From positions 1 to 62,136 of the IMG/VR virus record IMGVR_UViG_3300030090_003965: 62,136 nucleotides of DNA, one strand, 5' to 3'. The first letter of the stretch is position 1. The number at the start of each line of letters is the position of its first letter. Positions 9,749 through 46,660 of the stretch are shown here, one piece after another. Origin of the DNA: a virus. The notes beneath the pieces are model-generated. The model was not told the origin of the DNA. It saw nothing but the letters and a program-made list of their open reading frames with translations, and did not search any database. Both the position numbers and the translations under genes were made by a program.

Positions 9749-11509
9749 TCAAACGGTAAAAACCTCTAACGGGTCCTTTTTTCCTTTCACTTCTATGGGT
9801 TCCAACGACTTTAACACAAAAGAACATTTTTTTGCAGTAGAAGACCCAACTAATATCTCCTTTCCTACCTGTTTGGTGGATGATTCCAGTCTGGCTGCGG
9901 TATTTACGGGGTCTCCGATCGCAGAATAGTCGAACCTAGAAGCGGAACCCATGTTCCCTATCACTGCTTTTCCTGAATTAACCCCCACCCCGATAGCAAC
10001 AGGTACAGGTAAGACTTCGTTAAGGACTTTTATCTTTTCCTGTATTTCAATTGCGGCCTTTATAGCAGCGTCTTCGTGATCAGGTAGGTCTAGTGGGGCC
10101 GAAAAAATTGCCATACAGGCGTCACCAATGAACTTATCTACCATGCCCCCGTGTTTTTGTATGGTTTCTACCTGTACAGACAAAGTTTTGTTCATTATTT
10201 CGGTAACTTCCTCCGGAGACAGCTTTTCCGACATAGAAGTAAACCCCCTCAGATCAGTGAACAAAAAGGTTGCGTAGCGGGTTTCACCACCTAGGGTCAA
10301 CAGGTCGGGGTTATCTTGCAAGCGTTTTATTTGTCTTGGGTCTAAGTAGTGTTCAAACTGTTTTTTAATCTGCTGGCGTAGTAAATACTGTTCCCTAAAG
10401 TTAAACCAGAACTGTTCCCCAGATAGTAACAATAAACAAATAGCGGGCCAAGTAACATCAACTAATTGATTTTGTTGAATAAGATAGACTCCTAGGCCAT
10501 ATACTCCCGCTAACATTCCTCCTACACTTACAGCAGACCAAGTTACATTACATCTTTGTAGAAGAGTTATTGTAATTGTACATACCAATAAAAGAAGCCC
10601 TAATTCATACAATAACCGGTTTGCAGGAATACTAGGACTGTTTGGTAGCAATAAGCTCTCTGCCAAAGCAGCTTGTATGTAGTGGGGATTTAACAAACCC
10701 GCAGGGGTAGCCAACTGTGGCATTATTCCTGCAGCACTTGTTCCCACAAAAACAAACTTACCTTCTACCTGTGGGTCTTGGTACGAAACCGTAGGGGTAT
10801 CCACCCAAGAGACCCACTTTCGGCCAAACCTATCTGTAGGAATTACCCCAAGTGCCGGTATTCTAAGGCTTTCAATACCTCCTTCATTAGTTCGTATTTG
10901 GTACGTTCCCTCCCCCGTAAGAGCTTTTAATACTTGTGTGGCAAAAGAAGCAACCCAACCGTCAGGAGCTCGAGAAATAAGGGGAATTTGCCTTATAAGG
11001 TTATCTACATCAGTAGGAGCAGAAACAGCCCCCTGTAAAGCAACCTCAGTTAGTTGCTCTATGTTTAAAATAAACCCCTTTGCAGGGCTATAGTTAACAG
11101 GATCTTCGCCAAGAATAACAGTTCCATGTGGTGGAGGATATTCCGCATTAGCAAACTCAGGCATAGCTAATACATTTATCCCCTGAGTTAGGCTTGTGGC
11201 AAAATCTTCATCTCCACCAAAACGGTCCGGTTGAGGAAATAAAACCACCCAACCCACCCCCAGAGCACCTCGATCCATAAGCTCATTTTGTAAAGTAGCT
11301 AAGGTTTGACGGGGGAAAGGCCAACCTCCTTCTCTTGCTATATCTTCTTCAGTTATATCAAGAACTACAAAATGCCCAGATGGAGTGGGTTGAGTAATAA
11401 ACGCATCAAATGTTTTAAGTCGCAACACCTCTAATGCAGACCAGTTTAACAACAAAGGCAAAGCTAAAGCTACAACGGTGAGTAGTCCGACTTTTGTACC
11501 TAGTTTCAA
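9749..11509 (-). CDS. CHASE2-domain class III adenylate cyclase
   Basis: 586 aa. TM helix at about 7-25, then a periplasmic CHASE2 sensor (25-290, with FVVLDITEEDIAREGGWPFPR and GKFVFVGTSAAGI), three TM helices (about 303-370), and a cytoplasmic class III cyclase domain (410-586). Catalytic residues are all present: metal-binding Asp419 in FTDLRGF and Asp463 in FIGDACMAIF, base-recognition Lys459 and Asp533 (IGDPVN), and Asn536/Arg540 of NTAARLE. Lys/Asp predicts ATP, hence cAMP. The start is TTG 11509; no ATG or GTG lies upstream in frame, and TTG overlaps the stop of a 20-codon ORF as TTGA. It is adjacent to curlin and FecR genes and just upstream of the holin. Very unusual on a phage. Confidence 0.93.
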   Translation of the reverse strand: MKLGTKVGLLTVVALALPLLLNWSALEVLRLKTFDAFITQPTPSGHFVVLDITEEDIAREGGWPFPRQTLATLQNELMDRGALGVGWVVLFPQPDRFGGDEDFATSLTQGINVLAMPEFANAEYPPPHGTVILGEDPVNYSPAKGFILNIEQLTEVALQGAVSAPTDVDNLIRQIPLISRAPDGWVASFATQVLKALTGEGTYQIRTNEGGIESLRIPALGVIPTDRFGRKWVSWVDTPTVSYQDPQVEGKFVFVGTSAAGIMPQLATPAGLLNPHYIQAALAESLLLPNSPSIPANRLLYELGLLLLVCTITITLLQRCNVTWSAVSVGGMLAGVYGLGVYLIQQNQLVDVTWPAICLLLLSGEQFWFNFREQYLLRQQIKKQFEHYLDPRQIKRLQDNPDLLTLGGETRYATFLFTDLRGFTSMSEKLSPEEVTEIMNKTLSVQVETIQKHGGMVDKFIGDACMAIFSAPLDLPDHEDAAIKAAIEIQEKIKVLNEVLPVPVAIGVGVNSGKAVIGNMGSASRFDYSAIGDPVNTAARLESSTKQVGKEILVGSSTAKKCSFVLKSLEPIEVKGKKDPLEVFTV

Positions 11510-11568
11510 GGTTTTAGCACTTCCATCTTTTTCTTGCTTGCCATAGATTTTTCTTTTTTCTTAGCCAT
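11506..11568 (-). CDS. 20-residue Lys-rich peptide, possible coupling ORF
   Basis: ATG 11568 to TGA 11506, lysine-rich (MAKKKEKSMASKKK...). It begins four bases after the curlin stop and ends with its TGA overlapping the TTG start of the cyclase gene (TTGA). I see no strong ribosome site of its own. It may be a leader that passes ribosomes to the weak TTG start, or it may not be translated. Confidence 0.35.
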   Translation of the reverse strand: MAKKKEKSMASKKKMEVLKP

Positions 11569-11572
11569 TTTT

Positions 11573-12358
11573 CTAATCAAATTGGTTAATTGTTACGGTT
11601 TTGTTACAGCTTGAAGTGCAGTTAAATACCGCTGTGTAAGATTTGGCACTTACTCCATTTTGAGTTGCATTTACGGTGTAGTTTCCCTGTTCTACTCGTA
11701 TGTTCCCAACGTGTGCGCCGTCACCTGATTGCGTCAGGTTAACCGTTGAGTTATCGGCAGGGTTGTTTTTGAACTCAATGTCGCCATCCTTTGCGCCGCT
11801 ACCTGATTGCGTAATCGTAGCATCATTATTATTGCAGTTGTTGCAAGATTTAATATAGGCGTTGTGGCTTCCAGAACCAGATTGAGTAATTGTCCACGTA
11901 CTGTCATCTCCAAAGGCGTACATCTTTGCATAATGGTCTCCGGTACCTGTTTGGGATACCTTATAGATGTTGTCATCGCCAGACATATAAATTTCGCCAT
12001 ACATATCGTCACCGGTTTGGGTAACGGTCATCTCATTTGAGTCCTGATCCGCGTCAATATACCCTGTGTTGTCGTTTCCAGTCTGTGTAATCTTATATTC
12101 ATTCCCTGTATGGTTTGTGTACTGGCTATAGGTTTTAGCTAAATTATCGTCACCATTCTGGTCAATATCGATGGTAGCACTACTACAGGTATGCGTTGTG
12201 TATGTTCCATTTGATAGCCCACACCAGACACGCGCCGTATTGCCGGTTCCTATTTGTTCAATATAAATGTTGGTGTTTGTCCCTTTAGTATCTATCTCTA
12301 CGGAATTATCCGCTGCAAAAACAGGCAAACTAAGGAGACTGAACAATAGTAATCGCAC
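11573..12358 (-). CDS. curlin-repeat amyloid protein (CsgA/CsgB-like), copy 2
   Basis: About 261 aa with a signal peptide (RLLLFSLLSLPVFAAD, cleavage near AFA-AD). About nine curlin-type repeats follow, such as YIEQIGTGNTARV, KITQTGNDNTGYI, TVTQTGDDMYGEI and NLTQSGDGAHVGNI, fitting the curli pattern xxQxGxxNxA. Four Cys occur in pairs (CNNCNN, CTSSC). GTG 12358 is preferred because GGAGG lies five bases upstream; an ATG at 12370 is in frame. It overlaps the FecR gene by 29 (or 41) bases. Expected route: Sec to periplasm, then through CsgG to the cell surface, where such repeats form amyloid. The acidic repeats resemble bacterial curlins more than virion fibres. Confidence 0.85.
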   Translation of the reverse strand: MRLLLFSLLSLPVFAADNSVEIDTKGTNTNIYIEQIGTGNTARVWCGLSNGTYTTHTCSSATIDIDQNGDDNLAKTYSQYTNHTGNEYKITQTGNDNTGYIDADQDSNEMTVTQTGDDMYGEIYMSGDDNIYKVSQTGTGDHYAKMYAFGDDSTWTITQSGSGSHNAYIKSCNNCNNNDATITQSGSGAKDGDIEFKNNPADNSTVNLTQSGDGAHVGNIRVEQGNYTVNATQNGVSAKSYTAVFNCTSSCNKTVTINQFD

Positions 12359-13415
12359 TTTCACCTCCACCGTTTACTACCACACCTATTTTTACACCCG
12401 CGGTCAGAATGTCTACGTTGTAGGCCCCACTTTTTTCTAGCTCTAAGTCTACAGTGTTTTCCACTTGGCGAAACAACGTAAGTCTTTCGCCCTCTACAAA
12501 AGAATAAATCTGTAGCTGGGGGTCAAATCCCGGAGTAATTCCTACTAACTCTACTCCGTCTAACTCCGCACCTTTTTCTTCTTTAGCCGCAGCACTTACC
12601 TCTATTACGTCTAACAGATCAGTTAGGAAGTCCACATCTAAAAAGTCCACATCTAATCTACCTATTTCATCTTCTAACTCATCTTTATCCAATTCGTTTT
12701 CATCTAGTTCGGTTTCTTCCAATAGATCTACGTCTAGTATGTTATTGGGACTACTGGCTTGTTCCTCTACGGCTTGTTGAATTTCGTCTGGAGGGTTAAC
12801 AATAAGCAAATTATCTATAAAACCCAGTGTCATGCCCTGTAATAAAACAGGTGGGGTAGGTGGTGTCTCCGACACACTAACCATAGTAGCTTGAAACGGT
12901 TCATTCATCACCACTACACCTGCTTGCGTTGTTACGGTTATTTCCCCACTAGAAGCCCCCGTGGCGTCTGGGAGAAGAATCACCAAACTGCGACCAATTT
13001 CATCCACCGTAGTGGTGAAGTCTGTCCCACGAATGGCAATAGTAGCGGTAGGAGTACGGATACTAATGTTCTCACGGTTAATACGTCCCAATGCGCCTGT
13101 CAAAAAGCGGGCTGTACCACTAGCCATGTTAAGAGCTAAACGGCTTTGAGACGGATCGGGGTCAAAAATGTATTCGTCTATTACAACACTGGAACGCTCG
13201 GTTAGTCGTACTACGCTATCGTCAAGAAACTGAATAGCTAAACGCCCGTTCCCAGTACGTACGTTATCCATACTGGCAATACCCAGTTGTAACTCAGCTG
13301 CTAGGGAATCATCCGTGTTCTGACGTAAGACCTCGCCAATTCCTCTCAATTCAGAAATAGACCCAACTTGGGCACTTGCCACAAAGGGCAAAAAAACTAG
13401 CAACCAGAAGTACAT
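12330..13415 (-). CDS. FecR-domain periplasmic protein
   Basis: 361 aa. Signal peptide (MYFWLLVFLPFVASAQ), then a FecR domain at about 17-160: VGSISELRGIGEVLRQ, GRLAIQFLDDSVVRLTERSSVVIDEY, MASGTARFLTGAL, ISIRTPTATIAIRGTDFTTTV. These are the conserved FecR blocks. After a linker there is a highly acidic stretch (residues 215-265, Glu/Asp/Leu repeats such as LDVDFLDVDFLTD) and a C-terminal beta-rich tail. FecR domains occur in periplasmic signalling proteins and, from memory, often beside CHASE2 cyclases in bacteria. It overlaps both curlin genes, so it is made in fixed ratio with them. Possible sensor, nucleator or chaperone. Confidence 0.88.
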   Translation of the reverse strand: MYFWLLVFLPFVASAQVGSISELRGIGEVLRQNTDDSLAAELQLGIASMDNVRTGNGRLAIQFLDDSVVRLTERSSVVIDEYIFDPDPSQSRLALNMASGTARFLTGALGRINRENISIRTPTATIAIRGTDFTTTVDEIGRSLVILLPDATGASSGEITVTTQAGVVVMNEPFQATMVSVSETPPTPPVLLQGMTLGFIDNLLIVNPPDEIQQAVEEQASSPNNILDVDLLEETELDENELDKDELEDEIGRLDVDFLDVDFLTDLLDVIEVSAAAKEEKGAELDGVELVGITPGFDPQLQIYSFVEGERLTLFRQVENTVDLELEKSGAYNVDILTAGVKIGVVVNGGGESAITIVQSP

Positions 13416-14116
13416 TGATCTACATCAATAACACCATTAGTCGTAATAGCTACTATGTCTAAAATGTTTTTAACCGAACCCCCAGTACTGCTTTGGTCTA
13501 CGTCGATGTTATTACCATTACCCGTTATATTTGCTTTAATGGAATGGTCGGCATTGTTTACTTGAGTGGTGTCGATATCGTTTGAATCCCCGTCCACGGT
13601 CCAGTCGTTTACACAACCCACAACGTTACAAGTTACGTTGATGTTGTTTGAAGTCCCTGTAACACTAAAGTCTGCGTTCGCAGCGGTCGCTGTTGCAGTA
13701 TTACCTTGTGTGTAAACAAGCACGTTACTATCACCGGTAGCTTCAAAATCAAAATCTGTGTTTTGTACATCACCTGTAGCACCTAAAGCCAGAGTTTGAG
13801 TATTGCTGTCACCAGTAGACTTTAAAGTAAAATTAGCTGAATTAGCTTGTGCCGCCGTCATCGCAATAGTGTTGCTGTCACCTATCTGATCTACATCAGC
13901 CGTAATGGATGTACCCGATAAGCTCACCCTAGCACTACTGGTACCAACAACGTTGCTCGACCCAATCTGGTCTATACTAAGCGTGAGGGCGGTGCTACCG
14001 CCGCCAGCTTGAGTTAAGTAAATATCGTTGTTGGCCGCAAGAACAGACACACAATAGGCCAATGAATATAATAAAAACGCATAAACTAAACAAGATTTAA
14101 TCATTAGAGATCGCAT
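13397..14116 (-). CDS. curlin-repeat amyloid protein (CsgA/CsgB-like), copy 1
   Basis: 239 aa. Signal peptide (KSCLVYAFLLYSLAYCVSVLA), then repeats such as LSIDQIGSSNVVG, ADVDQIGDSNTIAM, FEATGDSNVLVYTQGN, VDGDSNDIDTTQ and ITGNGNNIDVDQ, matching the curlin xxQxGxxN pattern. GGAGAGG precedes ATG 14116. It begins one base after the CsgG stop and overlaps FecR by 19 bases. It differs from the second curlin in being poorer in aromatic residues, like the two-subunit major/minor arrangement of CsgA and CsgB; which is which cannot be told by eye. Confidence 0.85.
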   Translation of the reverse strand: MRSLMIKSCLVYAFLLYSLAYCVSVLAANNDIYLTQAGGGSTALTLSIDQIGSSNVVGTSSARVSLSGTSITADVDQIGDSNTIAMTAAQANSANFTLKSTGDSNTQTLALGATGDVQNTDFDFEATGDSNVLVYTQGNTATATAANADFSVTGTSNNINVTCNVVGCVNDWTVDGDSNDIDTTQVNNADHSIKANITGNGNNIDVDQSSTGGSVKNILDIVAITTNGVIDVDQCTSGC

Positions 14117-14117
14117 T

Positions 14118-14963
14118 TTACCTCTCCTCCGGAGACTGATAGTCCCACAAATCTCTTTCTATCCCCTGCATTATAAGCTCATAAACAGCAGCTTCTATAG
14201 CGGACCTTACAGCATACCCCGCTGTCTCGTTAACTGCCACCCCTGTTTCTAGTTCTACGAGTTCTACACCGTTTTCGGTAAATCTAAAAGTGTCTATTCC
14301 CGTAGAAGCACTAAAAATAGTTTTACTAGCTAATACATTTAACAAAACCTCTCCGGTTTGTACCAACACCGCCCTAAGCGAAACCGTGACTTGGTCTCGT
14401 CGGTGTTGCCTAGAGGTACCAATACCTAAGTAACGTGCTCCAACGCCGCCGGTAAATGTATTTGTTGAGTAGGAAATAATTCCTCCTTCCATTAGCAAAC
14501 CAGCAAATAAAAGAGGTTTTAACTGGTTATCGCCTTCGCCATCGTAAGTACTACGGGTAGATATAATTAGTTGACGTTCTCTGGTTAAATGGTCTAACAT
14601 GCCTCGTTCTGCCACGGTAAACCACGTTCCACCACCCGCGTTTTGTAGAGCTTCGATTAAAAAGCTATCTGCTCCCTGAGTTACCGCTGTGCTGAACAGG
14701 GCCATGTTATCAGCCGACTTACGCTGACCGGTTAAGTCTAAAAAGCTATAAACAGCCACCACTGCCTTGCGGGCAGGAGCGGAAAGTTCCACTAAGTCTT
14801 GTAAAGTGGGACGGTCAATACGGGGGCCTTCTGGGCAACGGGTATTGGCTACATCAGCGGGGTCTGCAATACGCGAAGTACTATTACGACACGCTTCAAT
14901 AGGGCCAACTGCCACACAGCCACAAGTGGCAAAAGCCAGAAAACATACAATTAGATACCGCAC
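14118..14963 (-). CDS. csgG: CsgG-like curli outer-membrane secretion channel
   Basis: About 281 aa from GTG 14963 (a TTG at 14978 is also in frame). A signal peptide ends in ATCGC, an imperfect lipobox. Strong family matches: VVAVYSFLDLTGQRKS, LFSTAVTQGADSFLIEAL, WFTVAERGMLDHLTRERQLI, GGVGARYLGIGTSRQHRRDQVTVSLR, GEVLLNVLASKTIFS, and SAIEAAVYELIMQGIERDLWDYQ. In E. coli CsgG forms a nine-subunit, 36-stranded outer-membrane pore that exports curlins. In the pore constriction the E. coli Phe56 equivalent is kept (LFSTAV), but Tyr51 and Asn55 appear changed. It overlaps CsgF and is one base from the curlin start. Full family length, so no truncation. Confidence 0.93.
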   Translation of the reverse strand: MRYLIVCFLAFATCGCVAVGPIEACRNSTSRIADPADVANTRCPEGPRIDRPTLQDLVELSAPARKAVVAVYSFLDLTGQRKSADNMALFSTAVTQGADSFLIEALQNAGGGTWFTVAERGMLDHLTRERQLIISTRSTYDGEGDNQLKPLLFAGLLMEGGIISYSTNTFTGGVGARYLGIGTSRQHRRDQVTVSLRAVLVQTGEVLLNVLASKTIFSASTGIDTFRFTENGVELVELETGVAVNETAGYAVRSAIEAAVYELIMQGIERDLWDYQSPEER

Positions 14964-15421
14964 TCGTCTGTGGAGCAAATACCGAAACTACCTACAGGAA
15001 TACGTATTTCAGTTATTCCTCCATCAATATCGGTAACTAGGAGAACAATCTCTGTTCCGGTGTTTATAAAGCTAATTTGATTGCCTTCGAGGTCAAATAC
15101 CCCGCCTGACCCTCCGGTTTCAGAGTTAAACAACGATTCCGCTAAATCACGAGACAACTGGCTAAAGATACGACTCTCAAGGTTACGCACAAACTTAGCA
15201 AGGGTGGTGTTTTCTTGTTCACGTAAGAGTTCGCTTGCACGGGACTCGGCGGCTTCTCTTATGTCTTGTTTTCGGCTACGTTCTTGTTCATCTATAGTGA
15301 GATAATGCGCCGACTGTCCCACTCCGTTAAACGAGGGGTTTTTGAACTGAAAAGTTAGCCCAGTAGCCATTGCCTGAGAACAAAAAAGACCCAAAATTAC
15401 TGCACCTACATTACTCTTCAT
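14951..15421 (-). CDS. csgF: CsgF-like curli assembly factor
   Basis: 156 aa from ATG 15421, with GGGAGAG upstream (a GTG 6 bases earlier is less likely). Signal peptide to AMATG, then the diagnostic mature N-terminus LTFQFKNPSFNG, which matches the CsgF segment that inserts into the CsgG channel (TFQFRNPNFGG in E. coli). A helical middle (KFVRNLESRIFSQLSRDLAESLF) and a beta C-terminus with IVLLVTDIDGGITEIRIPVG also fit. Two Cys near the end. It overlaps CsgG by 13 or more bases, so pore and plug are co-translated. Confidence 0.9.
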   Translation of the reverse strand: MKSNVGAVILGLFCSQAMATGLTFQFKNPSFNGVGQSAHYLTIDEQERSRKQDIREAAESRASELLREQENTTLAKFVRNLESRIFSQLSRDLAESLFNSETGGSGGVFDLEGNQISFINTGTEIVLLVTDIDGGITEIRIPVGSFGICSTDECGI

Positions 15422-15653
15422 AGTCACTCTCCCGTAGCTCGATTACGGTGTCTAACTTTTGTTGAAGTCTAATTATATCGTTATCTAACATCCTAACTCT
15501 GTCTATTAGCGCAATAAGCGTGGTGTTTGCTTCGGCTAGTTTTCGCTTTATGTTATTGGTTATGTAATTCCAAATAAAGTGAATCATGTATAACAAGCCG
15601 GTGGTTGCCACTATAGGGAATCCGTACTCGCCAACTGCTTCGGCTATGCCCAT
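15411..15653 (-). CDS. small membrane protein with coiled coil, paralogue 1
   Basis: 80 aa. N-terminal TM helix (GFPIVATTGLLYMIHFIWNYI), then a charged helix (ANTTLIALIDRVRMLDNDII). It overlaps CsgF by 11 bases and shares its start region with the stop of the next gene. It resembles its neighbour (15653-15934) in order and motif: GFPI at the TM start and a (L/M)(D/N)xDxIR in the coil. The layout is like BhlA/UviB holin-like proteins, but curli accessory function is equally possible from context. Confidence 0.65.
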   Translation of the reverse strand: MGIAEAVGEYGFPIVATTGLLYMIHFIWNYITNNIKRKLAEANTTLIALIDRVRMLDNDIIRLQQKLDTVIELRESDYEE

Positions 15654-27627: not shown

Positions 27628-27656
27628 AGCATAAGGTCTACTTACCTGACTAGCAA
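27628..27656 (-). promoter_or_regulatory. promoter of the same family
   Basis: TTGCTA, 17-base spacer, TATGCT, then AAAAGGGTATAAGTAACC, which is identical downstream to the 26412 promoter. The -35 lies inside the last codons of 27642-28097. Confidence 0.6.
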
Positions 27657-28097
27657 CTGTACGGGTTCCCATTTGGCCTGCATATCGGCAATCGTTTGGG
27701 CGGGCACACCGTGAATATTACCAAAGTCGTTTTGGGTTTCCAAAATAAAGACACCCCAGCGGTAAGTATCTGCTAGTTGTAGGTAGGGGTCAAGTTCGGC
27801 CTGTTTACTGAACGTATTACTCACAATACATCGGTAGTGGTATGGGTGTGCTTCTGCGGCGGCATTTTTCATATAGGCTTCTACTTTGTCTTGGCAATAC
27901 TGGTGAGCTTGCTGTAGCTTGGTGCCGTCAAAGTTGTATTCACCTGTTGTGGGGTCGGTAAAGTATTGGTCAGCCTCGCACAGGAGTGGGGTGTTTAGCA
28001 AATTATATCCAGCACGTATTATCCGCGCCAGTGTAGTTTTACCTGACCCGGGAAGGCCTCGAATCAGGTACAGTACACGTAGGTTTCTGGTAGCCAT
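27642..28097 (-). CDS. P-loop kinase, AAA_33/N4BP2L-like
   Basis: 151 aa. Walker A is LIRGLPGSGKTTLAR (residues 11-25); CEADQYF follows as in polynucleotide-kinase-type P-loop enzymes; then NFDGTKLQQAHQYCQDKVEAYM and VSNTFSKQAELDPYLQLA, characteristic of the N4BP2L1/AAA_33 group. Probable nucleotide, nucleic-acid end or modified-base kinase. In hypermodifying phages a P-loop kinase phosphorylates 5-hydroxymethyl-dU in DNA; this small enzyme is a candidate because the helical partner domain occurs at 38891-39823, but the genes are 11 kb apart. Confidence 0.8.
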   Translation of the reverse strand: MATRNLRVLYLIRGLPGSGKTTLARIIRAGYNLLNTPLLCEADQYFTDPTTGEYNFDGTKLQQAHQYCQDKVEAYMKNAAAEAHPYHYRCIVSNTFSKQAELDPYLQLADTYRWGVFILETQNDFGNIHGVPAQTIADMQAKWEPVQLLVR

Positions 28098-33730: not shown

Positions 33731-33967
33731 CTAGGGTTTATCCCACTTTAAGCTGTACACGGGGTCAAGGCACTCGCAACAATAGATATTGTGGCTCTGT
33801 GCAGAAAGGTAAAAGTTATCACCACCGCAGGCTTCACATAGCACTATTTGTATTTCCATGGTGGTGGGTTTCTCTTCTGGAGTAAATCTCTTAGCTACGT
33901 AGTCTCGCAAACTGACAACATTGCCTGTTGCATGAACGGGGGAACGGGACGGTTTTTCCATTGACAT
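33731..33967 (-). CDS. zinc-ribbon protein
   Basis: 78 aa from ATG 33967 with AGAAGG seven bases upstream. LCEACGGDNFYLSAQSHNIYCCECLDPVYS is a CxxC-x17-CxxC zinc ribbon. It overlaps the upstream gene by 73 bases in another frame, which is large but both starts look good. Function unknown. Confidence 0.5.
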   Translation of the reverse strand: MSMEKPSRSPVHATGNVVSLRDYVAKRFTPEEKPTTMEIQIVLCEACGGDNFYLSAQSHNIYCCECLDPVYSLKWDKP

Positions 33968-34386
33968 AAATAAGCCTTCTCTTGCTGGTAATAAGTACGG
34001 TAGGCTTCTACCGCGTTGGTACCCTTATACTCCTCTGGCATGGCTTGTACAAAATCTGTAAGGCCAGTAGCCAATAACTCACTGGGAGGAGTACAAATGG
34101 TGTTGAGTATGTTTTCGGTTTTGTGGGTCTTGTTGTAGCGATACGTGTATTCGTTACAGAGGGCAATACCAAGGTCGTGTAAAAAGCGATAATTGGTAGT
34201 AGTGTTTCCTGCCCACACGGTACAGGGATGGTTTTTGTGCGTGGCTTTATAGGGCGCGGGCGAACCATACCGCCAATGCACAGCACATAGCATCTGTGCT
34301 GTTTCTAAAATCATTTTCACAACGTGCTTGTCTGCGTGGTACTGGGCACATTTGGTAGGGTCAAGGTGTAGTAAAAATATATTCAT
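33895..34386 (-). CDS. conserved phage DKHVVKM-family protein
   Basis: 163 aa. NIFLLHLDPTKCAQYHADKHVVKMILETAQMLC, then ATHKNHPCTVWAGNTTTNYRFL, LALCNEYTYRYNKTHKTE, and AYRTYYQQEKAYLCQW, form a widespread phage family. DKHVVKM and YYxxEK vaguely recall T4 pyrimidine-dimer glycosylase (ADQH..., WYKYYGKA), so a DNA-repair glycosylase is one possibility; I would not assert it. Confidence 0.6.
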   Translation of the reverse strand: MNIFLLHLDPTKCAQYHADKHVVKMILETAQMLCAVHWRYGSPAPYKATHKNHPCTVWAGNTTTNYRFLHDLGIALCNEYTYRYNKTHKTENILNTICTPPSELLATGLTDFVQAMPEEYKGTNAVEAYRTYYQQEKAYLCQWKNRPVPPFMQQAMLSVCETT

Positions 34387-34441: not shown

Positions 34442-34957
34442 TTATTTTTTCATCATATCAAGGGCGTGTTCAAGGGCTTCGTCGGTGCGTCGGTGCCATC
34501 CCTTACCAAAAGTAGTGAAGGTGCTTAGACCTTCGTAAAAAGTTTTTCTCTCCTGAGTAAATCCTTCAAGAACATCGCTGGGGTCGCTGTTGGCCACAGC
34601 CTGTAGAGTTTTAGGGCCAATTGCTCCGTCAGCAGTGACTTTTATGACCTTTTGCAGCGTTTTTGCAGCGCGGCTCGGGCCACCGTTTACGCACCAGTCA
34701 AAAACAAGGTAATCTATTCCGGTGGGTAACTCATCAGCCTTAATTTTGTCCCAATAAAGACGTTTATAGATTTCTTTTACGTCTTCGTCGGGAATATTTT
34801 TTATGTCTTCAACGGTTACGTCTTTACCAAGGAATTTTTCATAAGTTTTTTTAGTAATTCCTTTGTTGGTAGCTCCTCCGGGGTCCTTGGGGTGGTCTAC
34901 AAAGCCTCCTTCGTGTGCTAGGACCAAGTTTAAGCATTCATTAAAGTTTTCTTTCAT
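34442..34957 (-). CDS. endolysin, GH108 N-acetylmuramidase
   Basis: 171 aa. NLVLAHEGGFVDHPKDPGGATNKGIT carries the GH108 catalytic EGG motif (Glu16); YWDKIKADELPTGIDYLVFDWCVNGGPSRA and the C-terminal PG_binding_3 region (VTADGAIGPKTLQAV) complete the standard two-domain enzyme of normal length. No signal peptide, so it needs the holin at 9340-9726. It degrades the glycan strand of peptidoglycan at lysis. It overlaps the HD gene by 17 bases. Confidence 0.9.
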   Translation of the reverse strand: MKENFNECLNLVLAHEGGFVDHPKDPGGATNKGITKKTYEKFLGKDVTVEDIKNIPDEDVKEIYKRLYWDKIKADELPTGIDYLVFDWCVNGGPSRAAKTLQKVIKVTADGAIGPKTLQAVANSDPSDVLEGFTQERKTFYEGLSTFTTFGKGWHRRTDEALEHALDMMKK

Positions 34958-35492
34958 TGTTTTCTAACTCTTGTATTACTTTTTCTACAGGGGAAAAATT
35001 AGGGTTCTTGGAAAAATTATTTCTTAAAAAAGCTATACCGTTTTCAAAAATAGGTCTAGCCAGTGTGTTGCCTTTTTGTATTTTACCGTAACAGTGTAGG
35101 ACTAACTCTAGCATATCTGCCATTTTACACAGACTTTTGTCTTCATCGGTTATGTAGGTCGGGTAAAAAGTAGAGTCGATTCCTAGGGTTTTTTCGTACT
35201 CGGACTCCACCTTACGGTATTCTTTGGCTAAAAGCGGGTACTTCCACTTTGTAGTGGCGGGCAGGTCACCCAGTTCGGCCTCGGTTATGTCATGGTAGAG
35301 CAAATAAAACCACGCGTTCTTGCTGGCCTCGGGCCACAGGGTATTGAGTATAACCAAGGCTCGCCAAGTGTGTTCGGCTACGGTTTGGTTTTCGCCTACG
35401 TCTGGTCTGGTATGAAACCGCGTAACTTGTCCTCCCAGTAGTCTTTGTTCCAAAAGCCCATACTTTGACAAATCACTCCGATCAGAGTACAT
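34941..35492 (-). CDS. HD-domain 5'-nucleotidase, YfbR-like
   Basis: 183 aa from ATG 35492 with GGGAGAAGCAAAAA upstream. The HD motif set is present: RFHTRPDVGENQTVAEHTWRA (His), YLLYHDITEAELGDLPA (HD, E..D), and KMADMLELV (Asp). YfbR hydrolyses deoxynucleoside 5'-monophosphates. In phage it may trim dNMP pools or supply dUMP for the ThyA-type enzyme. It overlaps DNA polymerase by 11 bases. Confidence 0.8.
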   Translation of the reverse strand: MYSDRSDLSKYGLLEQRLLGGQVTRFHTRPDVGENQTVAEHTWRALVILNTLWPEASKNAWFYLLYHDITEAELGDLPATTKWKYPLLAKEYRKVESEYEKTLGIDSTFYPTYITDEDKSLCKMADMLELVLHCYGKIQKGNTLARPIFENGIAFLRNNFSKNPNFSPVEKVIQELENNERKL

Positions 35493-37344
35493 TTTTTGCT
35501 TCTCCCCAGTTAGGTCCCAGTTCTGCGTCCACAACGCTGGGAACCTCTAAATCTACACAGGTCTGCATAATTTCCACTATTTTTTTAGCTTGTTCTCTGT
35601 TTTTTACGCTAATGTCTAGTTCGTCGTGTACTTGTATCATAGGAAGTATGCCTTCGTCGTATAGGGCAACCATGGCAGCCTTGGTTTGGTCAGCTGCACT
35701 CCCTTGTATGAGCTTATTGAGTGCTTTGTAGGTAAAAGCTCGCTTTATGCTTGGGCCATGTTCGGCATAGGCTTCTTCGTAGGTGAGGGGTTTCCATGTG
35801 CCGTACTTGGTAGGCTCCCATTTGTTAAATCTGCATCGGCGTCCCAGTAGGGTACGGATTATGCCTCGGTTAGTGGCGCGGTTACTGGCGTAGTCAGCTA
35901 GTTGGCGTACAAAGGGAACCTTGTCGTGATAAGTGGCAAATAAATCTTTTGCCTCTTCTAGCTCTAGTCCTAGCGTAGCTGCCAGTTTGCGCGTACCCAT
36001 ACCGTAGAACAAACCAAGGTTAATGTCTTTGGCCTGTTTACGGGGGACACCTACTATGTCGGCTGCCATCTGGTGGAAGTCGGTGTAGGGGTCTTGGGCG
36101 TATTGTTCGGCAAATTGGTCCGCGCCGGTAAATTCAAGTAACTTTGCGTAATGCACCACTATTCGCGGTTCTTGACTACTGTAGTCAAAGGCACCCCATT
36201 CTTCGTTTTCTTCGGGTAAAAACAGGCTGCGAATCATAGGGCCTATTTCCCCGTGTCTAGCCGGTATTTGCTGTAAATTAGGGTTACTGTAGCTAAACCT
36301 ACCAGTAACAGTGCCCCCGCCGTCGTTACGCAAGCTGTGTGCCTCTGCGTGTATTCTACCATTACATTGGTGGCGCAGTATGGTGTCGATAAAAGTGGTT
36401 CTTGCTTTGTTGTATTCCCGTGCCTGCACTACCATCTGTGGCAACGGATGACTGTGCGTGGATAAAAACGTTTTGGTAAAAGACGGAGCGTTTGTTTTTT
36501 CTGTGTATTTGTACTCTAGTTTAGCGGCATCAAAGGCTTTAGCAATGCTGGCAGCAGCCCATAGGTCTACGGGTACGCCGTAGTCGGCTACTATGGTGTC
36601 TAGGATGTGCTTTTCTTTTTGTTGGAGCTCGGTTTTTAATAGTTCGGCTTTTTCTAAGTCTACACGTACGCCTTTTTGTCGCATGGGTAGCACTACGTTC
36701 AGTACATTAAGTTCAAGGTTAAAAATGTCTTGTATATCCTGTTGTATCAGCAGTCCCTTAAAGTGTTGCCACAAGCGCAGGGTAAGGGCTGCGTCTTGTT
36801 CGGCGTAGGCTCCTACATGGTGTGCAGGGAGTTTGTACATTTCGCTCTTAGCGTTTACGCCAAATTCAGCAGCAGCAACGCGGAGTTCTTGTTCGTTTTT
36901 TCTTTCGCTTAAGTAATCTCTTCCCAGCGCGTTTAGGGCATAGCTCCAGCGGTTTTCATCCAGTAGGGGCGCAACCACCATGGTATCCACTATACGGCCA
37001 CTTAGGGTTAAACCCTCATGTAGTAGCCAGCCTACATCGTACATAGCGTTGTGGAAGATGTAGTCTCTGTCTACGGAGATAACATCCTGTAACCAGCGCA
37101 GGGTGGCTTTATCGTCTAGGTTAGGGCCTATTTCATGTCGTATGGGAAAATACCACTGATTTCCCTGCACGGCTACGGCTACGCCTATTATATGACCATT
37201 GCCCGTGGGCCATCCGGATCCCAGCGTAGTTAGGGCGGGATCGCAGGTTTCTAAGTCTATGGCTATTTCTTTATAAGAACTGAGGTCAGGATAGCTTTGG
37301 GGACAGACCCATTCGGAATCTGTTTTGAACAAACTAGCTTGCAT
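35482..37344 (-). CDS. polA: DNA polymerase I (family A)
   Basis: 620 aa. Exonuclease domain: IAIDLETCDP (residues 27-36), FHNAMYDVGWLL and YAEQDAALT, so proofreading residues are intact. Polymerase motif A is GAFDYSSQEPRIVVHYA, motif B KQAKDINLGLFYGMG, motif C IQVHDELD. The residue matching E. coli Phe762 is Leu443 (codon 36016-36018). In studies of marine phages Leu at this site was linked to slower, often temperate, replication. No 5' nuclease domain. Replicates phage DNA with the primase and helicases upstream. Confidence 0.95.
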   Translation of the reverse strand: MQASLFKTDSEWVCPQSYPDLSSYKEIAIDLETCDPALTTLGSGWPTGNGHIIGVAVAVQGNQWYFPIRHEIGPNLDDKATLRWLQDVISVDRDYIFHNAMYDVGWLLHEGLTLSGRIVDTMVVAPLLDENRWSYALNALGRDYLSERKNEQELRVAAAEFGVNAKSEMYKLPAHHVGAYAEQDAALTLRLWQHFKGLLIQQDIQDIFNLELNVLNVVLPMRQKGVRVDLEKAELLKTELQQKEKHILDTIVADYGVPVDLWAAASIAKAFDAAKLEYKYTEKTNAPSFTKTFLSTHSHPLPQMVVQAREYNKARTTFIDTILRHQCNGRIHAEAHSLRNDGGGTVTGRFSYSNPNLQQIPARHGEIGPMIRSLFLPEENEEWGAFDYSSQEPRIVVHYAKLLEFTGADQFAEQYAQDPYTDFHQMAADIVGVPRKQAKDINLGLFYGMGTRKLAATLGLELEEAKDLFATYHDKVPFVRQLADYASNRATNRGIIRTLLGRRCRFNKWEPTKYGTWKPLTYEEAYAEHGPSIKRAFTYKALNKLIQGSAADQTKAAMVALYDEGILPMIQVHDELDISVKNREQAKKIVEIMQTCVDLEVPSVVDAELGPNWGEAKNVL

Positions 37345-37519
37345 TGTCGGTTAGTATCTTCATAGACATATTGCAAGAACAATAGGGCCATTTATTTTTA
37401 AGCGTTCTGTAGGTAAGGGCTTTTGTGTCTTTTCCACAGGCGCAAACAGCCTTGATAGGGTTGTCTAGCTTAGATTCTCTTTCGGCTTCCTGCTCGTACA
37501 CTACGTGTGATTTTTCCAT
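37334..37519 (-). CDS. small zinc-finger protein
   Basis: 61 aa. CACGKDTKALTYRTLKNKWPYCSC forms a CxC-x18-CxC site. It overlaps the polymerase start by 11 bases and the upstream gene by 19. Function unknown; possibly a replication accessory. Confidence 0.5.
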   Translation of the reverse strand: MEKSHVVYEQEAERESKLDNPIKAVCACGKDTKALTYRTLKNKWPYCSCNMSMKILTDNAS

Positions 37520-37833
37520 AAAAGTAACTCAGACTCAACAAGTAATAAATATCTACGTAAATCTCTAATGTCGTCTATTATACCTTCTTCTGTCTCATCG
37601 TCTGCTTGGTCTTTTAAGGTTCTAAATATATCGTAAGAGTCCCCGCCTTCCTGTGCTTGAAACGTTACTTGGTTTTCTATTCTGTCCCACTTACGGGCCA
37701 GCATCATAAAGGCCCCTACACCGCCCCGTTTTTTCCAACTATTACCGTAGTATTCTTCGGCTTTAGTTAAAGCCTTTTGGTCCTCTTCGAGAATACTGGG
37801 CAGCAGGTATAGGTTACTGTTTGGGTGTGACAT
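37501..37833 (-). CDS. conserved phage hypothetical protein
   Basis: 110 aa. EEYYGNSWKKRGGVGAFMMLARKWDRIENQV and EEGIIDDIRDLRRYLLLVESELL is a well-conserved phage pattern, commonly next to thymidylate synthase or nucleotide genes as here (its start overlaps the ThyA stop by one base). No catalytic proof; possibly a nucleotide-metabolism partner. Confidence 0.65.
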   Translation of the reverse strand: MSHPNSNLYLLPSILEEDQKALTKAEEYYGNSWKKRGGVGAFMMLARKWDRIENQVTFQAQEGGDSYDIFRTLKDQADDETEEGIIDDIRDLRRYLLLVESELLLWKNHT

Positions 37834-38894
37834 TATGGTTTCTCCGCATCAAATTGAACGCCGCCTCTTCTGCTGAGCCATTCGTGCAGGGCTATGGCCC
37901 AGTCTTCCGCTTGAATGCACTGTGCTGTAAAGTCGGCTTGGTAAGTGTTTTTGCCTTTTTCTTTATATAGTTTCCATGCTCTGAGCATTTTTATGGCCAC
38001 ATGGGGGAAAAAGGAATTTTTCCAGTGTGGTTTTAGCCACTTTTCTCTTGTGGGGTCGTACACTGCTCCCACGCTGTCTACACCAAAAAACTGTTCCAGT
38101 TCTTGGTCAAAGGAATTTATGTCATCTACTAAGGGCCTTGGTTGTATTAAACGGCTGCCGTAGGCGTCGTAGTCGGGTTGCATGTTTTCTAGCTTTTTAA
38201 GTGGTTCCAAGTACGCGTGGAAGTTATTGCTAAACTGGGTATAAATACCTACTTTAGTTCCTGTTTTTGCTGCCATATACTCTTGCAATACCGACATGTG
38301 AACGGCATTTGCCCCCAGTGCTCCCCAGATCATATCGTTGCTGCGGTTAACAACAGTCATGTCTAAGTGTTCACCCCTTTTTTGAAAGTAAATCTGTGTG
38401 TTACAGGGATAGTCTTTACCATCGTTTGTTTGTACTAAGTCTTCAGTTGCATCCCACATGGAAACCACGGTGCGTCGGTCGTTTTTGTAGGTAAGCAACC
38501 GGTGAACGGCGTGTTCAAGCTGGTCTTTGCCAAACCAGTATCGCCAGCGGTGGCCATACGCCCCATGAAAGGTTTTGCCATCGTCGCTGTAAGTGTTTAT
38601 TCTGCCGTTAAACTGGCTAATCCAGTCTACGTCGTTACGGCCTTGCAGCATCCATAACGACTCCATTAGGTGAAACACAGGGTTAGCGTCCCGTTGGGGG
38701 TAAAACAGTACTCTTTCGCAAGGGTTGTTATACGTAATAGCTACGGGGGTGTCGAACTCTAGGGCAGGCCCATTACGGGTTTGTATAGTTGTGCCTTCCT
38801 CTTCTAGGGCAGTCTTACACAGGTATAAGGCCTCGCTAACGTTGCGCACGGTAAAGGTTCTTACTCCTTTTAGCCTAGGGGAATCATAGGTCAC
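37833..38894 (-). CDS. thymidylate synthase-family enzyme, possible dUMP hydroxymethylase
   Basis: 353 aa. Catalytic Cys in KDYPCNTQIYF; nucleotide-binding VVNRSNDMIWGALGANAVHMSVLQEYMA; and FSNNFHAYLEPL. It lacks the standard TS GLPFN spacing: the stretch after RSND is WGALGAN, one residue longer. It is also longer than the usual 265-280 aa, with a 50-residue N-terminal extension. Such divergent ThyA homologues in phages often make 5-hydroxymethyl-dUMP rather than dTMP. It overlaps the adjacent predicted modification gene by four bases, which favours the hydroxymethylase reading. Confidence 0.75.
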   Translation of the reverse strand: MTYDSPRLKGVRTFTVRNVSEALYLCKTALEEEGTTIQTRNGPALEFDTPVAITYNNPCERVLFYPQRDANPVFHLMESLWMLQGRNDVDWISQFNGRINTYSDDGKTFHGAYGHRWRYWFGKDQLEHAVHRLLTYKNDRRTVVSMWDATEDLVQTNDGKDYPCNTQIYFQKRGEHLDMTVVNRSNDMIWGALGANAVHMSVLQEYMAAKTGTKVGIYTQFSNNFHAYLEPLKKLENMQPDYDAYGSRLIQPRPLVDDINSFDQELEQFFGVDSVGAVYDPTREKWLKPHWKNSFFPHVAIKMLRAWKLYKEKGKNTYQADFTAQCIQAEDWAIALHEWLSRRGGVQFDAEKP

Positions 38895-39823
38895 GGTACG
38901 GCTCCAATAACAGAGGGTTGATCACGAAACACCGGATGTGTAAAGCCATCAAACTTTGACCGAGGCTTGCCTTGGCCTTGGCGTACTCGTTCGTATTTAT
39001 CCCATTCGCACAGGCTGTGCTCTATAGTACGCATGTCTATTTGTTTAACGGGGCATTTTCCCTTGCAGTAAAAAGTTGCTGCATACATAAGTTCTTGCAT
39101 TTCCTGATTAGCCTGTACGTCTTTTATTGATTTTTTTAATGGTCTGTTCTGTAAGCGGTTAAGACCACGCTTGGCTCCGGGACCGGCATTGGCCCAAGAA
39201 AATCTGTCCTGTGCGTGTTGCAACACAGGGGTGTAGTTAAGGTCGGTAACTACTTCGTAGGCCATAAAACCTCCACCACCCCATCCGGTAAAGGTACCCA
39301 GAACTTTGTGTAGGCTCTGTAAACTGTTAGAGATTTTTGCCACTTGTTCCAGAGAATCACGGGCCTCCCAAATGGGGGTTAAAAAGTAATCAGAAACTAC
39401 TTCCGATTTCTTTAGCTTTAGCCCCTGATTAGTAACAATGTAGGCTCCCGTAAAGGTAGGCCGCTTGTTTTGCAAACGGGTTTCTATTACAGCCTTGGTA
39501 TAGGCGGGATTCCAGTTTGTTACCCAACCGTGTTCTTCGGCAAAACCGGAAGTCCCCACACACCTAAACAAGCAGCAGTTAAAGATAATTTCTCCCCATG
39601 GACGGTCTTTGTTAGGTTCTGTCCAGTTTTTCCGCATCCATACGGTTACTCTGTCGTTTTCTCTAAAGGGGTTAGTAAACTTGTATTCCTGTAGTATGGG
39701 GTCTTGAGTCCATGGGGCAGCTTGTCCTGAGGCTCTTCGTTGATAAATGGCGTGTCGTTCGTTTATCCAGCCAAAAAACCTTTCTACGGCTTCGGGGTTA
39801 GCGTGAGCTGTACGGTGCCAGAT
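38891..39823 (-). CDS. 5-hmdU DNA kinase helical domain / aGPT-pyrophosphorylase family
   Basis: About 310 aa. The family motifs FFGWINERHAIYQRRASGQ, APWTQDPILQEYKFTNPFRE, NDRVTVWMRKNW, then FMAYEVVTDLNYT, ANAGPGAKRGLNRL and IEHSLCEWDKYERVRQGQGK are those of proteins of thymine-hypermodifying phages. The first 62 residues lie upstream of the first ATG (39637), which has no ribosome site. No ATG, GTG or TTG occurs in frame after the upstream stop. AAGGAG at 39829-39834 points to an ATC start at 39823. Function would be to act on 5-hydroxymethyluracil in phage DNA. It overlaps ThyA. Confidence 0.75.
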   Translation of the reverse strand: MWHRTAHANPEAVERFFGWINERHAIYQRRASGQAAPWTQDPILQEYKFTNPFRENDRVTVWMRKNWTEPNKDRPWGEIIFNCCLFRCVGTSGFAEEHGWVTNWNPAYTKAVIETRLQNKRPTFTGAYIVTNQGLKLKKSEVVSDYFLTPIWEARDSLEQVAKISNSLQSLHKVLGTFTGWGGGGFMAYEVVTDLNYTPVLQHAQDRFSWANAGPGAKRGLNRLQNRPLKKSIKDVQANQEMQELMYAATFYCKGKCPVKQIDMRTIEHSLCEWDKYERVRQGQGKPRSKFDGFTHPVFRDQPSVIGAVP

Positions 39824-39836
39824 AGTGGTCTCCTTA

Positions 39837-40154
39837 TTAAGAGTTTTCGCTAGAGGGAACCAACAGTTCTATTGCTCCTGCCTTTACGGCCAGCTTTATG
39901 TCGGTGCTGCCTCCGGGAGAAACAGTTAAACTTTTTAGTGCCGTGAGGGCTTGGCCTACGGTGTGGGCCTTCATTACCACCCGCATGTTGCGATACCTAT
40001 TAGTACCCTTACGAATAGGTGGTTCATCCATTAGCGATTTAATAATCACGTTGTGCTTAATATGCACCCTGCGCTGTTTAGGCTTTGATGGAGCGGGCTT
40101 TTCTGGTTCATCATAGGAAACAATTCCCCCAAAGGTGGGATCCGTTGTCGACAT
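39837..40154 (-). CDS. hypothetical protein
   Basis: 105 aa, basic middle (KPKQRRVHIKHNVIIKSL) and a helical end VMKAHTVGQALTALKSL ... IKLAVKAGAIEL. It is the start of the modification gene group. Function unknown. AGAGGTACTTACA precedes ATG. Confidence 0.55.
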   Translation of the reverse strand: MSTTDPTFGGIVSYDEPEKPAPSKPKQRRVHIKHNVIIKSLMDEPPIRKGTNRYRNMRVVMKAHTVGQALTALKSLTVSPGGSTDIKLAVKAGAIELLVPSSENS

Positions 40155-45373: not shown

Positions 45374-46660
45374 TTAAAATAAAGCCCCCTGTTCCAACAC
45401 AGGTTGCTCTGTGGAAATACCAAAGAATTCAAGGTTTTTGGCGCAGTTTTCTTTTACCTTGGCACTCGGTGTACCAACACGGCACGGTTCTAAACTGGTT
45501 ACTAATTCTGCATACTGGTTAGCTACGTGGTGTTGGTCAAACCTAGGTAAAAGGGCTTTGTTGGCTCTTTGTATACGGTTCCACTGGTCTTGGTCATGCA
45601 GGGCGTTGTCTATTATCTGAGCAAATTCCTTTTCCGTGGCTGTGTGGGGAATTTCAATGTAGTTTTTATCCTTCAAAAACACCTTACTTCCAGCCATGCC
45701 TAGGTCAGTAGCTACGGGCACCGCGCCTTGAATAATGGCTTCTACAGTGGTGCGGTTAAAGTGAGCTCCATAGCCTGAGTACTTAAGCGACCAACTGGGG
45801 TCTATCTGTAGTTTTACATCCTGTAGTAACTGGTGAACGGTACTATTGGGTATTACACCTTTGTATAACATACCGCTATTTAAGGCCGCGTCCCAGATGC
45901 GTTCACCGTTTTCGTTGTAGTACTGGGGTTTGCATTTATCTATACTGGTCATATAGCGGTATTCAATGCCTGCGCCACCTATTAGTTTTTGTTCTTGGTT
46001 CTGCATGTGGGGTATGGCCTTTACTAAGGTGTGCATACGCTTCCATGCCTTAAATATCTGCACCGCAGCAAACCCCGACCGCTGGTAAAAGGGTCTGTTT
46101 TCGGTGTTGGGTTCTATGTGAAAGGGGTTTAAGATCATAGTACGTGGAATATCTAGGCATTCAGCGGAGTTGTAGGCGGCTTCGTGTACGCACACAGCGG
46201 CCCAGAACTGGTCGGAAACATGCAACAGATGTGGATACAGCTTGGGTAGGTTGCCGTCGTGAATAATGGCAATGTTTTTAGCCCCGTGGTCGTAAAGGTC
46301 TAACCAAGTGGATATGTTTTTATTGTCTTTGTTCAGTGTAGGCACAGGAATATGCCACAGTATGGCGTCGTAAGTGGCGCATTCTTCTTTAAACTGTTTT
46401 CTGGCTGCGTCGTTTAAATAAGGTACCTTGGGTAAACCTGCCCAGCCCCTAGCCTGATGGTGTTTGTATCCCGTGCCGTATATACGGTATTCTTCAATGT
46501 CTTTTATGTTTTGCTTACGTATTGTTACCTGTTTTTTAGGTACTAGCTGTACGAAGTCTACCTCGTGGCCGTTTAGTTTCAGGCCCATTGCAAGGTGTTC
46601 GGCGTGGTTGATTATGCCGCCGTAGTCCTGTATCTGGTACAAAACCATTCTAAACTTCAT
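45374..46660 (-). CDS. GT-B fold glycosyltransferase
   Basis: 428 aa. YQIQDYGGIINHAEHLAMGLKLNGHEV is the N-terminal glycine loop; IAIIHDGNLPKLYPHL the linker; KAWKRMHTLVKAIPHM and the donor-site region NRTTVEAIIQGAVPVATDLGMAGS (E-x7 type) the C-terminal domain. A GT4-like retaining enzyme. Sugar acceptor unknown: it may add sugar to modified DNA bases, given the predicted hydroxymethyluracil genes nearby, or to a virion protein or host surface. Transcribed from the element B promoter. Confidence 0.78.
   Translation of the reverse strand: MKFRMVLYQIQDYGGIINHAEHLAMGLKLNGHEVDFVQLVPKKQVTIRKQNIKDIEEYRIYGTGYKHHQARGWAGLPKVPYLNDAARKQFKEECATYDAILWHIPVPTLNKDNKNISTWLDLYDHGAKNIAIIHDGNLPKLYPHLLHVSDQFWAAVCVHEAAYNSAECLDIPRTMILNPFHIEPNTENRPFYQRSGFAAVQIFKAWKRMHTLVKAIPHMQNQEQKLIGGAGIEYRYMTSIDKCKPQYYNENGERIWDAALNSGMLYKGVIPNSTVHQLLQDVKLQIDPSWSLKYSGYGAHFNRTTVEAIIQGAVPVATDLGMAGSKVFLKDKNYIEIPHTATEKEFAQIIDNALHDQDQWNRIQRANKALLPRFDQHHVANQYAELVTSLEPCRVGTPSAKVKENCAKNLEFFGISTEQPVLEQGALF

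Follow-up and report, generated by a model that had tools for sequence, protein, structure and literature searches.

The virus genome IMGVR_UViG_3300030090_003965, whose 62,136 nucleotides form the whole stretch analysed here (the window), probably carries a sugar-type cassette for thymidine hypermodification, the likeliest product being glycosylated 5-hydroxymethyl-dU. A sequence-only reading had proposed hypermodified or glycosylated DNA for this phage; the hydroxymethylase, the PF18723 neighbour and the glycosyltransferase on which it relied stand, while the P-loop kinase that it included has to be dropped. Glycosylation as the last step is supported by gene linkage, by exchange among relatives and by protein fold.

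Judged by sequence, the window belongs to the HTVC023P-type pelagiphages, i.e. phages of SAR11, the most abundant ocean bacteria. Its PolA and TerL are closest to those of HTVC023P and HTVC027P; across these two phages, the environmental genome 023Pt_psg01 and phage DSL-LC04, TerL identity was 58-60% and PolA identity reached the range given in Table 1, while all other phages gave at most 45% (41-45% for the next, unrelated ones). A curli (type VIII secretion) cluster at 9749-15427 encodes a CHASE2-adenylate cyclase, curlin repeats, FecR, CsgG and CsgF. The available text of the published account already describes such a cluster in HTVC023P-type pelagiphages and counts these phages with the most abundant viruses of the ocean (PMC9599517). 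The assignment thus fits, because both the PolA/TerL identities and the curli cluster match the phages of that account. No DNA-level similarity to cultured phages was found for the cassette region. Two contigs of the same phage type, L179 and L180, were binned in MAGs named Woesebacteria and Flavobacteriaceae, and are probably mis-binned phage DNA.

The ThyA-HMUDK_hel gene pair

The predicted overlap of a ThyA-family gene with a gene of the HMUDK_hel family was confirmed (Table 1). The two reading frames share four nucleotides (GTGA), in which the GTG start of ThyA overlaps the HMUDK_hel stop. The ThyA-family frame matched PF00303 (E=7e-21), and the suggested PF18723 search of its neighbour gave 173.5 bits (gathering cut-off 25), covering profile positions 3-277 of 281. 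HMUDK_hel starts with ATC (39821-39823), eight or so bases after AAGGAG, and no ATG, GTG or TTG was found at the 5' end of the frame or upstream in frame; the same ATC start is used in the closest relative, L005 (10001-10003), which is 81% identical. HMUDK_hel is also 35-38% identical to M6 gp55 and its Sonora counterpart. Because homologues of both genes keep their order in dozens of distinct viral contigs, the pair is not a chance arrangement. It is not new as such, since a ThyA and aG/PT-PPlase1 pair near PolA is already reported for this phage group in the available part of the 2022 paper (PMC9599517).

Table 1. Positions in the window of the cassette genes, their flanks and the P-loop kinase
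Feature	Position	Strand	Evidence
HMUDK_hel / aGPT-PPlase1 protein, 310 aa, ATC start	38891..39823	-	PF18723 E=8.2e-51
ThyA-family protein, predicted dUMP 5-hydroxymethylase, 353 aa, GTG start	37833..38894	-	phrog_5131 (thymidylate synthase) E=1e-106
GT-B (GT4-like) glycosyltransferase, predicted 5-hmdU DNA glycosyltransferase	45374..46660	-	fold and slot homologues
Conserved 105-aa protein, cassette member	39837..40154	-	homologue in 66/80 relatives' loci
Conserved 110-aa protein, cassette member	37501..37833	-	homologue in 70/80 relatives' loci
HD-domain 5'-deoxynucleotidase (YfbR-like)	34941..35534	-	PF12917 E=1.6e-10; 63/80 relatives' loci
PolA-type DNA polymerase, cassette flank	35482..37344	-	51-57% identity to HTVC023P-type phages
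Pyrimidine-dimer glycosylase-like protein	33895-34386		PF03013, phrog_624; kept in 62/80 cassette loci
P-loop AAA_33 kinase	27642-28097		E=1.8e-8

The ThyA homologue had been proposed to be a dUMP hydroxymethylase rather than a true thymidylate synthase (TS), and the tree, the residues and the best PDB relative all support this. In the phylogeny, the window protein grouped with M6 gp58, to which it is 44% identical, and the enzyme of Stenotrophomonas phage Sonora (support 100/99). The SPO1-like, ViI-like and PhiW-14 enzymes fell on the same side (support 86-92, with long branches present), whereas E. coli ThyA, T4-like Td and phi3T TS lay on the other; the dividing branch had support 92/90 in a tree with several long branches. 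All catalytic residues are present (E58, Y94, C146, R166, D169, N177, H207 and Y209), and the uracil-specific Asn (E. coli N177) is kept. The Trp80 of TS is missing, as in other 5-hmdU enzymes, and the pocket contains a one-residue insertion common to the 5-hmdU enzymes of M6, SPO1-like phages, ViI-like phages and PhiW-14. When the ThyA profile was compared with the PDB, CMP 5-hydroxymethylase was the best match (9e-26) and TS gave 1e-18. The DNA of M6 contains 5-NedU, which is made via 5-hmdU (PMC6449724). Conversion of dUMP to 5-hmdUMP by the window enzyme is a prediction well supported by homology.

It is very improbable that the protein is a true TS and the DNA unmodified. Retention of every TS catalytic residue would suit such an enzyme, as would the name thymidylate synthase given to the protein by annotation pipelines, but its place in the tree, the pocket insertion, the lost Trp80 and the best PDB relative all argue otherwise. 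So does its constant pairing with HMUDK_hel, as found in M6 with its modified DNA (PMC6449724).

No PDB match was obtained with the HMUDK_hel sequence, and Foldseek returned nothing significant for its AF2 model (pLDDT 88.5). With VIA-align, the top 46 rows were all HhH-type DNA glycosylases or DUF2419 nucleosidase (Z 9.7-4.9), and the first unrelated row followed at Z 3.9. These middling Z values give moderate support to HMUDK_hel as a putative base-flipping DNA-binding protein with a DNA-glycosylase-like fold.

An exchangeable glycosyltransferase slot

The window glycosyltransferase, 6 kb from the ThyA/HMUDK_hel pair, had been listed by the sequence-only reading as lying elsewhere in the genome. 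Its homologues' position in relatives and its absence together with the pair in isolates now place it in the same system. The slot between HMUDK_hel and ThyA was examined in 47 distinct (<97%) marine lineages after removal of near-copies. It holds GT-B1, the homologue of the window glycosyltransferase, in 23 of the 47, a TAGT glycosyltransferase plus a radical SAM/SPASM protein in 12, a second GT-B enzyme (GT-B2), sometimes with an FkbM methyltransferase, in six, and an unclassified 338-aa protein (C5) without Pfam, PHROG or GT profile similarity in five. The slot is empty in one lineage, L005, whose glycosyltransferase, just like that of the window, is located further upstream. The profiles of GT-B1 and GT-B2 aligned over 315 columns (hhalign E=1e-5). 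The TAGT protein matched PF20691 (5.6e-14) and phrog_842 (1.3e-43); TAGT enzymes are DNA glycosyltransferases of phages (PMC13216743), and in T-even DNA they act on pyrimidines that are hydroxymethylated and glucosylated (PMC13216743, PMC13390438). Mapped on the HMUDK_hel tree, the slot labels required 11 changes, i.e. they were clustered yet repeatedly exchanged, with fewer than 11 changes forced by the well-supported branches alone. In most of its loci, an NrdR-like zinc-ribbon protein (e.g. L016 10906-11223) precedes the TAGT and radical SAM module.

The modelled glycosyltransferase showed a clear GT4/GT-B fold (pLDDT 89.8, Foldseek E to 5e-12), so that a confident fold match stood beside weak Pfam matches. 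Its Z was about 25 to GT4 enzymes. T4 alpha-glucosyltransferase (AGT) with HMU DNA (1y8z; Z 25.2, 329 residues) tied with the best, alongside non-DNA enzymes such as HepE (Z 25.5), and many non-DNA GT4 enzymes were among the top matches. No sequence similarity to T4 AGT or BGT was detected by HMMER or hhalign. From linkage and fold, we predict the enzyme to be a 5-hmdU DNA glycosyltransferase.

In the isolates HTVC023P, HTVC027P and DSL-LC04, the helicase, primase and PolA genes that flank the cassette are retained, whereas ThyA, HMUDK_hel, the glycosyltransferase and the surrounding small genes are all missing. Hence, the cassette appears to be gained or lost as a set. At the loci of these three phages, neither the 110-aa protein nor the HD nucleotidase was found, and the 105-aa protein had no homologue at the same place; the pyrimidine-dimer glycosylase-like gene was likewise not found at the loci of cassette-free isolates, while the PolA flank is present with or without it. 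The HD nucleotidase, whose homologue adjoins ThyA in M6 and AIIMS-Plu-RaNi too, probably trims the dNMP pool. The cultured Brevibacterium phage LuckyBarnes carries ThyA-TAGT-TAGT-HMUDK_hel in a single run (HMUDK_hel 4.6e-68), with no PF18748 or PF18724. A DUF932 gene, a possible further component, adjoins the cassette in 77/80 marine loci (e.g. L069 8219-9262 and L186 7625-8626) and is also near that of LuckyBarnes; it is absent in the window.

Kinase, amino-acid transferase and the alternative routes

In M6, Sonora and AIIMS-Plu-RaNi, a PF18748 kinase directly precedes HMUDK_hel (weakly matched in AIIMS-Plu-RaNi) and the genome has a PF18724 amino-acid:DNA transferase (ADDT). The same searches that recovered both families in these three controls found the 5-hmdU kinase PF18748 in 0 of 25 records, namely the window and 24 long relatives of 50-69 kb, and PF18724 as a separate gene likewise in 0 of 25. 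Twenty-five misses of two genes would be hard to explain by incomplete records. PF18724 gave a sub-threshold match inside the C-terminal part of HMUDK_hel itself, and nothing significant was obtained when HMUDK_hel was compared with the ADDT profile. The P-loop kinase that had been drawn into the modification system was rejected as part of it: the protein falls outside the PF18748 family, and its own family, phrog_2071, occurs in 0 of the 24 long relatives, so it was seen in the window only. This AAA_33 protein is possibly a nucleotide or polynucleotide kinase. Public records mislabel the M6-type 5-hmdU kinase as 'terminase small subunit' (PHROG 800; L188 5414-5983, L001 11393-11956).

Because PF18748 and PF18724 went undetected and the P-loop kinase is confined to the window, the M6-type route of phosphorylation followed by amination is unlikely, and glycosylation of 5-hmdU is likelier. 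An amino hypermodification could still be imagined in which the window's P-loop kinase works with HMUDK_hel as its helical subunit, a diverged enzyme performs the amination and the glycosyltransferase is unrelated. Both the name of PF18723 and earlier work on it do treat the family as part of the 5-hmdU DNA kinase, the replication module and its gene order recur in M6-type phages, and the weak ADDT match within HMUDK_hel would agree with such a scheme. We nevertheless hold it to be quite unlikely, given a kinase family missing from every long relative, two signature genes found in 3/3 M6-type controls and in none of our 25 records, and a slot that is filled by glycosyltransferases instead.

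It is also unlikely, if somewhat easier to conceive, that thymine is replaced by 5-hmdU only, and that HMUDK_hel and the glycosyltransferase serve otherwise, the latter for example by decorating the host envelope or the virion. SPO1-type phages do stop at 5-hmdU (PMC5977210), envelope glycosyltransferases have this fold too, and earlier work, as introduced in PMC9599517, suggested envelope roles for pelagiphage glycosyltransferases in general. An envelope enzyme would, however, fit poorly with a slot lying inside the HMUDK_hel-ThyA pair, with the DNA-glycosyltransferase family TAGT filling that slot in sister lineages, and with loss of the glycosyltransferase together with the pair.

At the second, otherwise invariant position of the HMUDK_hel motif F[C/T]NxxRxxD, all sugar-type proteins, that of LuckyBarnes among them, have Thr, and all kinase/ADDT-type proteins examined have Cys. 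This switch may be a single event, with LuckyBarnes possibly sharing ancestry with the marine HMUDK_hel proteins, and ancestry could explain part of the pattern. As a tentative idea, PF18723 might be a general base-flipping adaptor that presents 5-hmdU to differing partners, and not a kinase subunit as such; the exchangeable slot would allow SAR11 phages to vary the sugar that their thymines carry, and the Cys/Thr position would mark the kind of partner. Equally tentatively, those partners might be the PF18748 kinase in M6-type phages and GT-B1, GT-B2 or TAGT in pelagiphages and LuckyBarnes.

Proposed pathway and relation to known systems

The pathway that follows is our inference in every reaction, as are the flipping of the base, the final product and a physical pairing between HMUDK_hel and the glycosyltransferase. 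The ThyA homologue would make 5-hydroxymethyl-dUMP from dUMP, and the HD nucleotidase would probably remove competing dNMPs. After conversion of hmdUMP to the triphosphate, PolA would incorporate 5-hmdU instead of T. Following replication, HMUDK_hel would bind 5-hmdU and probably flip the base from the helix, upon which the glycosyltransferase would take a sugar from a nucleotide-sugar of the host and attach it to the hydroxymethyl oxygen. The proposal contains no kinase or amino-acid transferase step. DNA modified in this way might resist host nucleases.

The M6/YuA system (5-NedU) shares with the window a ThyA-type dUMP hydroxymethylase, HMUDK_hel, an HD nucleotidase, PolA and the order of these genes, but M6 has the PF18748 kinase directly before HMUDK_hel as well as PF18724, whereas the window group lacks both and has glycosyltransferases. 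Closest in phage type are the hypermodification genes of HTVC023P-type phages (clades V, VIII and IX), which, in the available text of their description, share the gene pair near PolA and the curli cluster with the window (PMC9599517). That text assumes the M6 mechanism and makes no mention of an exchangeable slot, of the lack of kinase and transferase, of the window's type of GT-B enzyme or of the Cys/Thr switch. The glucosylation of 5-hmC in T-even phages (T4 AGT/BGT, TAGT) similarly combines a ThyA-family hydroxymethylase with a glycosyltransferase acting on a hydroxymethyl pyrimidine of DNA; AGT has a GT-B fold like the window enzyme, and the TAGT family occurs in the sister lineages. It differs in that the pyrimidine of the window would be uracil (the Asn is kept), HMUDK_hel is always present and the glycosyltransferase shows no detectable sequence kinship to AGT. 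Base J of kinetoplastids, a glucosylated 5-hmdU, is of the same chemical kind as the predicted product. There, JBP/TET oxygenases start from T that is already part of the DNA, whereas in our proposal 5-hmdU would be made before replication. New here are the absence of a detectable kinase (PF18748) and ADDT, the confinement of the P-loop kinase to the window, the swappable slot, the glycosyltransferase co-absence, the LuckyBarnes run, the Cys/Thr switch and the predicted HMUDK_hel fold.

Modified thymine could bias the recovery of phages by enzymatic library methods. If the proposal is true, the presence of HMUDK_hel without a kinase would be explained, and the sugars that an exchangeable slot places on pelagiphage thymines would make up an extensive class of DNA modification that has so far escaped sampling.
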